DNA from: Citrobacter amalonaticus
Lineage (GTDB): Bacteria; Pseudomonadota; Gammaproteobacteria; Enterobacterales; Enterobacteriaceae
Assembly: GCF_002918555.1 (NCBI RefSeq)
Contig: NZ_PQMB01000007.1
Span: 62,001 to 126,000, forward strand
Reading direction: 5' to 3'
Length of the DNA: 64,000 bases
Shown here: positions 4,703-6,565 of the stretch, one piece after another
Numbering within the stretch: the stretch's first letter is position 1
How the letters are laid out: each line of letters opens with the position of its first letter
Translations under genes and position numbers: made by a program
The notes under the pieces: generated by a model
Database searches by the model: none
What the model was told of the DNA's origin: nothing
The model's input: only the letters and a program-made list of their open reading frames with translations

Positions 4703-4723
4703 ATTTGGTACCGAGGACGGGAC
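4703..4723 (-). repeat. 21-nt copy of the leuU tRNA 3' end in the metY leader
   Basis: These 21 bases are identical, in the same orientation, to 6545-6565, which are the last 18 nt of tRNA-Leu (leuU) plus 3 nt downstream. The copy lies between the metY promoter and the tRNA, so it is transcribed as part of the metY leader. The two copies bracket argG. See the finding on this repeat for interpretations. Confidence 0.85.
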
Positions 4724-4738
4724 GTAAAATCTGCGCGT

Positions 4739-4768
4739 ATTATATTGATCCAACGCTCATGCTGTCAA
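4739..4768 (-). promoter_or_regulatory. Promoter for metY-rimP-nusA-infB
   Basis: The minus strand has TTGACA (4768-4763), an 18-nt spacer and TATAAT (4744-4739). Both hexamers match the sigma70 consensus exactly. A GC-rich stretch (ACGCGCAGA) follows the -10, as expected for a stringently controlled tRNA promoter. Confidence 0.85.
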
Positions 4769-4904
4769 GGTCGAACCCAGTATGCAGTAGAATGAATATA
4801 CGACTTGTTCCTGTCTCATGCCGTTGTTCCCTCGCCCAGGACACAACCTGCGCCGTTATTTTACGAAATTGTCACTAAACTCTTCCTGTCGTCCATAAAA
4901 GATG

Positions 4905-4943
4905 ATTAAATGAAAACTCACTTATTTTGCATAAAAATGCACT
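4905..4943 (+). promoter_or_regulatory. Tandem ARG boxes (ArgR operator) upstream of argG
   Basis: Two 18-bp sites separated by 3 bp fit the ArgR pattern wnTGAATwwwwATTCAnw. The downstream box at 4926-4943 contains TGCAT-AAAA-ATGCA. The upstream box at 4905-4922 contains TAAAT-GAAA-ACTCA. Spacing of 3 bp is the normal arrangement for an ArgR hexamer. This implies arginine repression of argG. I could not place the argG promoter hexamers with confidence. Confidence 0.65.
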
Positions 4944-4994
4944 GAGAGCAAAAAACCGATCTCACCATCAGTTACTTAAGCAGGGTTCTATTTT

Positions 4995-6338
4995 ATGACG
5001 ACGATTCTCAAGCATCTCCCGGTAGGTCAACGTATTGGTATCGCTTTTTCCGGCGGCCTGGACACCAGCGCTGCACTGCTGTGGATGCGACAAAAAGGAG
5101 CTGTCCCATATGCATATACTGCGAATCTGGGTCAGCCTGATGAGGAGGATTACGATTCAATTCCTCGTCGTGCGATGGAATACGGCGCAGAGAACGCTCG
5201 CCTGATTGATTGCCGCAAGCAGCTGGTTGCAGAGGGGATTGCTGCGATTCAGTGCGGGGCTTTCCATAATACAACCGGCGGATTAACTTATTTCAATACG
5301 ACACCGTTGGGCCGTGCCGTTACCGGCACCATGCTGGTTGCGGCCATGAAAGAAGATGGCGTAAATATCTGGGGTGACGGCAGTACCTATAAAGGTAACG
5401 ACATTGAGCGTTTCTATCGTTACGGTCTGCTGACCAACGCCGAACTGCAGATTTACAAACCATGGCTGGATACCGATTTTATCGATGAACTCGGCGGTCG
5501 CCATGAGATGTCCGAATTTATGATTGCCTGCGGCTTCGACTACAAAATGTCTGTCGAAAAAGCCTACTCCACCGACTCCAACATGCTGGGCGCGACCCAC
5601 GAAGCAAAAGACCTCGAGTTTCTGAACTCCAGCGTCAAAATCGTCAACCCAATTATGGGCGTGAAATTCTGGGATGAGAGCGTGAAGATCCCGGCAGAAG
5701 AAGTCACTGTGCGTTTTGAGCAGGGTCATCCGGTTGCGCTGAACGGCAAAACATTCAGCGATGACGTCGGGATGATGCTGGAAGCCAACCGTATCGGCGG
5801 GCGTCACGGTCTGGGGATGAGCGACCAGATTGAAAACCGTATCATCGAAGCGAAAAGCCGTGGGATCTATGAAGCCCCTGGGATGGCGCTGCTGCATATC
5901 GCCTACGAGCGTCTGCTGACCGGTATTCATAACGAAGACACGATTGAGCAGTACCATGCTCATGGTCGTCAGTTAGGACGTCTGCTGTATCAGGGGCGCT
6001 GGTTCGACTCTCAGGCGCTGATGCTACGTGATAGTCTGCAACGTTGGGTGGCCAGTCAGATTACCGGTGAAGTTACGCTGGAGCTGCGTCGCGGTAACGA
6101 CTACTCGATCCTGAACACAGTGTCTGACAACCTGACCTATAAGCCAGAACGTCTGACGATGGAGAAAGGCGACTCGGTATTCTCTCCGGACGATCGTATC
6201 GGTCAGCTGACTATGCGCAACCTGGATATCACCGATACCCGTGAGAAGCTGTTCGGTTATGCGCAGTCTGGCCTGCTGACCGCCTCTTCCACAACCGGCC
6301 TGCCGCAGGTTGAGAATCTGGAAAGCAAAGCGAAATAA
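4995..6338 (+). CDS. argG: Argininosuccinate synthase
   Basis: ArgG joins citrulline and aspartate using ATP to make argininosuccinate, the penultimate step of arginine synthesis. It has 447 residues, as in E. coli; this is the longer ArgG subfamily compared with the ~400-residue form of many other bacteria. The N-terminal ATP-pyrophosphatase loop is seen as [14 protein letters not shown] (about residues 19-32). It is a single-gene unit, with tandem ARG boxes upstream and an intrinsic terminator 19 nt after the stop. It stands between the tRNA genes metY and leuU, both on the opposite strand. Confidence 0.98.
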
Positions 6339-6356
6339 CGCTCATTGAAAATAACG

Positions 6357-6380
6357 AAAGCCGCGATAGCGGCTTTTTTT
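6357..6380 (+). terminator. argG terminator
   Basis: GCCGC-GATA-GCGGC followed by seven T residues, 19 nt after the argG stop codon. Confidence 0.88.
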
Positions 6381-6417
6381 ATGGACCGTTAACCCAATAT
6401 GGGATCTGAGCTTTGTC

Positions 6418-6489
6418 AGTCTGATAAGGCAGTTACGCCGCCATCCGACATTTTGCGTAACGTACCTGATGGCGCTTCACTTATCAGTC
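6418..6489 (+). repeat. Pair of REP-type palindromic units (BIME)
   Basis: Two degenerate REP units are visible: 6418-6448 (GTCTGATAAGG...CCATCCGAC) and 6464-6489 (ACCTGATGGCGC...TTATCAGTC), in opposite orientation. REP units occur between convergent or at the 3' ends of enterobacterial genes. Here they separate the argG terminator from the leuU terminator. Confidence 0.7.
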
Positions 6490-6511
6490 AGCAATCCCCG
6501 AAATGCAGACG

Positions 6512-6541
6512 AAAAAAAGACGCTTTGCAGCGTCTTTTTTT
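6512..6541 (-). terminator. leuU terminator
   Basis: On the minus strand GACGCTGCAAAGCGTC is followed by seven T residues, just past the tRNA 3' end. A run of A on the other flank makes it usable in both directions, so it would also stop read-through from argG. Confidence 0.88.
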
Positions 6542-6544
6542 GAA

Positions 6545-6565
6545 ATTTGGTACCGAGGACGGGAC
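6545..6565 (-). repeat. Partner copy of the 21-nt leuU-end direct repeat
   Basis: This is the leuU 3' end plus three flanking bases, identical to 4703-4723. tRNA 3' ends are the usual target of tyrosine-recombinase integration, so a second copy 1.8 kb away is notable. No integrase gene is present between the copies. Confidence 0.8.

Follow-up and report, generated by a model that had tools for sequence, protein, structure and literature searches.

A duplicated leuU 3' end flanks argG in Citrobacter amalonaticus and points to the insertion of argG into an older leuU-metY gene order

The divergent argG and metY promoters of Escherichia coli were reportedly described by Krin and colleagues in 2003. 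Integration at a tRNA end is an already known kind of event, and site-specific integration at tRNA genes leaves a block reaching from the T loop to just past the tRNA end. For the integrative elements ICEKp1, ICEclc, and ICEEc1, the accessible part of one report describes a promoter at the 3' end of the element that drives int in the excised circle; in ICEKp1, int is located 161 bp after the tRNA, and the start site in the circle lies 15 bp from the 5' end (PMC13023037). The accessible text on E. coli gives a CRP site shared by the divergent argG and metY promoters (PMC3105977), as well as three operon promoters and three ArgR sites (PMC3334882). In the open-licence literature, we found no description of the argG locus as a case of integration at leuU, of a replacement of the resident argG, or of a change of the promoter DNA in front of nusA-infB.

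The window, i.e., the whole stretch of DNA analyzed here, comprises 64,000 nucleotides of C. amalonaticus and contains argG between leuU and metY. The following features were assigned in this region (positions in the window):

3911 to 4363, minus strand: rimP, the first gene after metY, followed by nusA (2396 to 3883); from the ORF list, used as the anchor for the locus comparison
4571 to 4647, minus strand: metY, tRNA-Met(CAT); tRNA prediction
4648 to 4702, minus strand: probable ancestral leuU-metY spacer (58 nt including 4703 to 4705); alignment to the spacers of empty sites
4703 to 4723, minus strand: putative distal att scar, 18 nt of the leuU 3' end (4706 to 4723) plus 3 nt; identical to 6545 to 6565, at a distance from metY as for the intact leuU of empty relatives
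4739 to 4768, minus strand: predicted outward promoter, TTGACA (4763 to 4768), 18 nt, TATAAT (4739 to 4744); 15 nt from the scar, reading into metY-rimP-nusA-infB
4856 to 4949, plus strand: argG control region with what we take to be an ARG-box-like palindrome; blastn blocks in loci L166 to L173 start at 4856 to 4880 and end at 4941 to 4949
4995 to 6338, plus strand: argG, long-form argininosuccinate synthase of 447 amino acids; ORF list, ArgG comparison, and ArgG tree
6356 to 6379, plus strand: terminator-like hairpin and T run behind argG; read from the sequence
6512 to 6541, minus strand: terminator-like hairpin and T run directly downstream of leuU; read from the sequence and compared across loci
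6545 to 6565, minus strand: putative proximal att, the leuU 3' end, element-borne in the integration model; repeat identity, tRNA call, and flank comparison
6548 to 6634, minus strand: leuU, tRNA-Leu(GAG); tRNA prediction
6644 to 6976, minus strand: secG, upstream of leuU; ORF list

The argG segment is flanked by a direct repeat of 21 nt at 4703–4723 and 6545–6565, identical and equally oriented, as the initial annotation had stated, and the match extends to 26 nt at 92% identity on the side of the tRNA body. As had also been claimed, the second copy indeed covers the final 18 nt of leuU together with the 3 nt that follow the tRNA. In the 5.53-Mb genome, the 18-nt tRNA part has two exact matches; each of the four other sites found carries three mismatches, and chance is no explanation of the repeat. 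Between the repeats, the ORF list (at least 90 amino acids) contains argG and one ORF antisense to argG, which agrees with the earlier statement that the segment holds only argG. Between secG and glmM, the window also carries genes for a LysR-type regulator, a beta-aspartyl-peptidase (NCBIfam TIGR01975), and a DcuC-type transporter (7145–10800). The gap between secG and glmM measures about 230 nt in other loci, e.g., L071, which indicates that this stretch is another insertion into the same gene row.

The best explanation of the locus as a whole, which we consider very probable, is that an integrative element with a long-form argG inserted at the 3' end of leuU and then decayed, leaving a scar. 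The ancestral gene order would have been secG-leuU-metY-rimP-nusA-infB, all on the same strand, and leuU would have ended some 60 nt upstream of metY; the host would have been the ancestor of the clade that includes Salmonella, Klebsiella, Enterobacter, Kosakonia, Leclercia, Escherichia, Citrobacter, and their allies. The element bearing argG presumably recombined with the leuU 3' end, most likely by means of a P4-type tyrosine integrase with leuU specificity; we infer this step, because the argG segment contains no integrase. The copy of the tRNA end carried by the element would have rebuilt leuU, and the original end would have remained 58 nt before metY as the scar. Subsequently, the remainder of the element may have been lost, with argG and its control region, the terminator behind leuU, and the outward promoter before metY being kept, and the resident short argG would have been lost from argCBH. 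An old acquisition of argG at leuU by integration was one reading of the initial annotation; it is supported by empty sites in relatives, the place of the scar, and trees. All features looked for in an integration scar at a tRNA 3' end were found, namely the flanking repeat, uninterrupted relatives with one copy, continuity of the spacer, and a cargo differing from the resident gene.

Two types of ArgG occur in the family. Among 149 family genomes, 47 encode a long ArgG (78% to 100% identical), in line with the earlier designation of this ArgG as a long form; 66 encode only a short form (about 30% identical), one encodes a fragment, and 35 gave no match (E 0.001). One genome, G243, encodes a long ArgG and a second match with 27% identity. 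In a sample of the order, the long ArgG was found in all 14 genomes of family f9 and in one of family f26. The short argG is located between argB and argH in locus L186, where argC and argE adjoin (NCBIfam argC, argB, argG, argH, and argE), and in L187 argC and argH enclose the ArgG match of G256. In the genome of the window, argB is followed by argH with roughly 150 to 180 nt between them, and argG is absent there. A difference in type or descent between cargo and resident gene (long vs. short ArgG) was confirmed. The homology of the argG unit to that of sister ArgG lineages (L166 to L173) starts at 4856–4880 and ends with the gene. The long argG lies beside rimP in 28 of the 47 genomes and elsewhere in 19, at loci with differing neighbors (L165 to L183; neighbors listed for all 19 and viewed for 10); it is an unusually mobile housekeeping gene.

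leuU still serves as an integration target. The leuU-side integrase of genome G198 was sought in 295 genomes, with up to six candidates scored per genome; 30 loci were returned and 22 were scanned for tRNAs, of which 5 had the integrase at tRNA-Leu(GAG), 3 at tRNA-Leu(TAA), 13 at tRNA-Leu(CAA), and 1 at none. A P4-type integrase directly beside leuU was present in at least 5 of the 295 genomes, a lower bound. The three leuU integrases tested against Pfam showed the domains Arm-DNA-bind_3, Phage_int_M, and Phage_integrase, and in three extant islands the integrase starts 152 to 194 nt downstream of leuU. A second att copy, GTCCCGTCCTCG-TACCAA, was found about 20, 9.4, and 27 kb away in G198, G316, and G425, respectively, and none was detected in the DNA examined near the leuU integrases of G334 and G364. 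In contrast to the argG scar, the far copy of the three att pairs lacks one G of the core (CTCG-TACCAA). Of the marks of a P4-type island, extant islands with att pairs at the same tRNA were thus found, and an integrase in the argG segment was not: in the window, this segment holds only argG and the antisense ORF. Four recombinase queries (phmmer) gave no match among the 113 other ORFs (at least 80 amino acids) of 45 occupied loci; ORFs were listed for all 45, 20 were read by eye, and 7 proteins were scanned with Pfam.

All 42 argG loci compared have the hairpin and T run behind leuU, as do 4 of 8 inserts of other kinds and 13 of the 14 loci in a second comparison of leuU flanks; the stem usually reads AGACG..CGTCT. 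The hairpin and T run also stand behind the far att copies of integrase islands. The common hairpin is compatible with a single family of leuU elements; alternatively, a required terminator could have been gained several times. The 19-nt leuU end was detected in two viral contigs, in both as part of a phage tRNA-Leu(TAG) gene in a tRNA array, and leuU matches occurred in 373 of 50,697 phage records; many of the 40 listed out of these 373 carry an annotated tRNA-Leu or lack annotation. Non-argG inserts at leuU in two different lineages (L094 and L147) encode related proteins of about 400 amino acids. Near leuU of G296, where leuU and rimP are far apart, a protein of 193 amino acids of the Phage_integrase family is encoded 212 nt from leuU on the opposite strand (L340), another recombinase beside leuU.

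Instead of being brought by an integrase, argG might have entered the leuU-metY spacer through RecA-type or end-joining recombination with duplication of the tRNA 3' end, for example, when a circle with a leuU fragment recombined with leuU. No integrase remains in the 45 occupied loci searched, and the occurrence of the long argG as a single gene elsewhere in 19 of 47 genomes implies more than one mode of moving. The duplicated block, however, starts within the T loop and ends 3 nt beyond the tRNA, the footprint of site-specific integration, and integrase islands occupy this very site in the at least five genomes mentioned above, so that we regard an integrase-free entry as unlikely.

Integration at leuU is further supported by relatives in which the site is empty, that is, an intact tRNA-Leu ends before metY with nothing in between. 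Two sets of loci were compared. The pattern scan (a GGTACCA end 45 to 65 nt before metY) yielded at least 117 loci, of which 82 of 117 among the matches listed were empty; the pattern is satisfied by both the empty and the scar state and misses loci with neither, so that these proportions are not frequencies. The second set was anchored at rimP and drawn from 116 genomes with a RimP match; that of the window and 21 genomes with weak or broken matches or of small size were left out. It comprised 94 loci upstream of rimP from family genomes, or 93 after removal of L090, which was too short: 48 were empty, 27 had a long argG between leuU and metY, and 18 had another insert or a leuU farther off. 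In empty loci, leuU ends 48 to 61 nt before metY, mostly 56 to 61 (48 in five cases), with one at 91 nt. All 130 empty loci (82 + 48) contain a single tRNA-Leu and a single copy of its last 18 nt (up to two mismatches) in the DNA examined, which answers a check proposed in the initial annotation, namely whether one repeat copy is present where argG is absent from leuU. Among the matches listed, SecG was encoded in all 75 empty pattern-scan loci with at least 600 nt examined upstream, and ArgG was encoded in the adjacent DNA examined of none of the 82. Empty pattern-scan loci include Yersinia, Serratia, Pantoea, Erwinia, Dickeya, and Rahnella, as well as Hafnia, Cedecea, Buttiauxella, Mangrovibacter, Atlantibacter, and Tenebrionibacter. 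Four empty records are labelled Enterobacter or Citrobacter (L218, L228, L253, and L288); in the tree, L228 was placed with Pantoea and L288 with empty loci near Buttiauxella. Outside the family, leuU was found 54 to 63 nt before metY in four of seven loci scanned, the other three showing metY only.

A species tree was calculated from the DNA of rimP, secG, and glmM for 133 of 211 loci, those with RimP and GlmM. The 24 argG loci form one clade in this tree (FastTree support 98), with Salmonella, Klebsiella, Enterobacter, Kosakonia, Leclercia, Lelliottia, and Superficieibacter among the named rows; Escherichia and Citrobacter are represented in the ArgG tree only. The insert state changes seven times on the tree, which was read as one change for argG and six for other inserts. 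An IQ-TREE calculation with 54 rows chosen from the 133 recovered the argG clade with support values of 92/88 and in 90% of 200 bootstrap trees. In the ArgG tree (102 rows, some genes being included twice, four partial rows dropped, quick search without a mixture model), 64 rows from the leuU site group at 97 with one nested exception: the long ArgG of G326 falls into this clade, and its gene sits elsewhere, 2.6 kb from tRNA-Sec. Next outside the clade are long ArgGs of lineages grouping with Dickeya, Brenneria, and Lonsdalea, among which the donor may have to be sought. One insertion of argG at leuU fits the sequence data, as the 24 argG loci tested fall into one clade of the marker-gene trees; the comparison of ArgG and species tree suggested in the initial annotation likewise agrees with one acquisition on both sides. 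An exact empty site would also result if direct repeats recombined, and argG could accordingly have been ancestral between leuU and metY and have been excised from the empty loci. This is very unlikely, given that empty sites occur throughout the family and in the four loci outside it, that a single gain explains the tree, and that 66 of 149 family genomes encode only the short ArgG.

The scar allows for a closer look at the place of the insertion. It was observed in 35 of 117 loci among the matches listed from the pattern scan, and a long-form ArgG adjoins it in 34 of these 35, the remaining locus offering only 180 nt to examine. Scar loci include Citrobacter, Salmonella, Klebsiella, Kluyvera, Enterobacter, Leclercia, and Lelliottia, as well as Kosakonia, Phytobacter, Pluralibacter, Trabulsiella, Shimwellia, and Superficieibacter. 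In 22 of the 27 argG loci of the rimP-anchored set, the scar matches the genome's own leuU in at least 16 of 18 positions and lies 58 to 59 nt before metY; two loci (L075 and L133) have it with small indels, in L154 it is degenerate, and it is absent in L080 and L110, which have argG at leuU and are both near the base of the ArgG clade. In the window, the scar is located 58 nt before metY, where leuU ends in empty relatives. The spacer behind it is identical to the empty sites of Cedecea davisae, a Buttiauxella MAG, and Mangrovibacter in 43 to 45 of 59 to 61 aligned columns, and to nine other empty loci in 36 to 43 columns (12 alignments in all). Because of the same distance to metY and the homologous spacer beside it, the scar is, judged from sequence, the original leuU end of the empty ancestor. 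In many argG genomes, the leuU end differs from the scar (CCCAT vs. CCCGT), which points to a later alteration of the proximal end. In argG loci, the leuU T arm occurs in two versions, ACGGGTTCAAGTCCCGT and GTGGGTTCGAGTCCCAT, whose differences are paired, which looks like a renewed replacement of the 3' half; at an empty site, Serratia carries GTGGGTTCGAGTCCCAT. A displaced old left end, i.e., a third att copy before argG, was not found in L331/L116, L334, L118, L154, and L229, which were chosen for a large distance between leuU and argG or for a different type of leuU flank. In three intact E. coli records, argG adjoins metY, and yhbX or a helix-turn-helix gene separates argG from leuU. The record of E. 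coli IR53017 (L009), in which genes from infB to leuU are frameshifted and out of place and argG is broken, looks like an assembly fault. Locus L127, which groups loosely with Yersinia in the species tree, has a 948-bp insert without argG at leuU (5310–6200) and a 15/18 scar 59 nt before metY; this is an independent, decaying insertion.

Two other origins of the metY-side copy had been put forward in the initial annotation. A decayed second tRNA-Leu gene would account for a tRNA 3' end inside the leader of a tRNA transcript, but outside the core there is no likeness to the leuU body (of the 69 nt next to the scar in the insert, 18 are identical, and 29% of shuffles reach the local score) and each of the 130 empty loci has a single tRNA-Leu, which makes this origin hardly credible. 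That the copy was kept as an RNA-processing or folding signal of the metY leader agrees with its good conservation in those 22 of 27 loci but is of negligible probability as an origin, since it explains neither the empty sites nor the flanks and the scar is missing or degenerate in L080, L110, and L154; such a role could be a later use.

The integration at leuU would also have changed the DNA in front of metY. The predicted promoter lies within the insert, 15 nt away from the core of the scar, and points toward metY; the same boxes and spacing are listed for E. coli metY in the accessible part of PMC3946193. As the homology of the argG unit begins only at 4856–4880, the promoter stretch (4724–4855) lies outside that unit. 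Promoters were scored in the stretch 160 to 70 nt before metY. All 65 argG loci reached at least 9 of 12 (63 of them with TTGACA in full), as did 5 of the 18 other occupied loci and none of the 130 empty ones. The empty loci are a weak control, since leuU occupies the scored stretch there; the comparison tells no more than that the promoter belongs to inserted DNA. Three non-argG inserts at leuU in other lineages (L147, L091, and L131) have a promoter in the same register, and two (L146 and L153) have a similar one at a different position. Outside the hexamers, 10 to 18 of 34 positions are identical between argG loci and the former three, with shuffle fractions of 0.0005 to 0.33 (n = 9) for rows picked for having the promoter; this likeness is suggestive only. 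A consensus promoter was absent from the far ends of three integrase-bearing leuU islands, where 634, 989, and 53 of 1000 shuffles scored as high. An outward promoter near att, as expected of a circularization promoter, is therefore present in the argG segment, and the same promoter was not found in its integrase-bearing relatives. We consider it possible, though less likely than not, that an upstream promoter of metY-rimP-nusA-infB in E. coli and the clade is a domesticated circularization-type promoter, from the far end of the leuU element that brought argG. The same register of the promoters in L147, L091, and L131, as a shared element family would give, speaks for this possibility, and the three integrase-bearing islands without such a consensus weaken it; the promoters could instead have been selected after each insertion. 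If the domestication were true, a core translation and termination operon would be driven in part by the switch of a selfish element, and the coupling of the nusA-infB operon to argG control would be a by-product of the element's landing place.

With the insertion of argG at leuU, the familiar argG-metY arrangement of E. coli gains a probable origin, an insertion that cut the older leuU-metY order. The same event would have replaced the resident argG and placed new promoter DNA before nusA-infB, and would thus exemplify an element of which only one biosynthetic gene and a promoter, now used by a host operon, are left. The empty sites of Cedecea, Buttiauxella, and Mangrovibacter make a before/after comparison testable.

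The E. coli argG-metY promoters are located in the same intergenic region as those described here, and the promoter given in the accessible part of PMC3946193 is the same promoter; as far as its accessible text goes, the E. coli literature treats regulation and gives no origin for the arrangement. Like the argG segment, P4-type tyrosine-integrase islands target a tRNA 3' end and are flanked by a direct repeat from the T loop to CCA. Unlike these islands, the segment in the window contains neither an integrase nor other cargo, one biosynthetic gene being left, and the same remnant is found in all argG-at-leuU genomes of one clade. In ICEKp1, ICEclc, and ICEEc1, as far as they are covered by the accessible text, a far-end promoter also points outward across att; it drives int there, whereas the promoter of the argG segment reads into metY-nusA-infB. 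A fossil of such an ICE-type 3'-end promoter would stand exactly at the place of the promoter in the argG segment.
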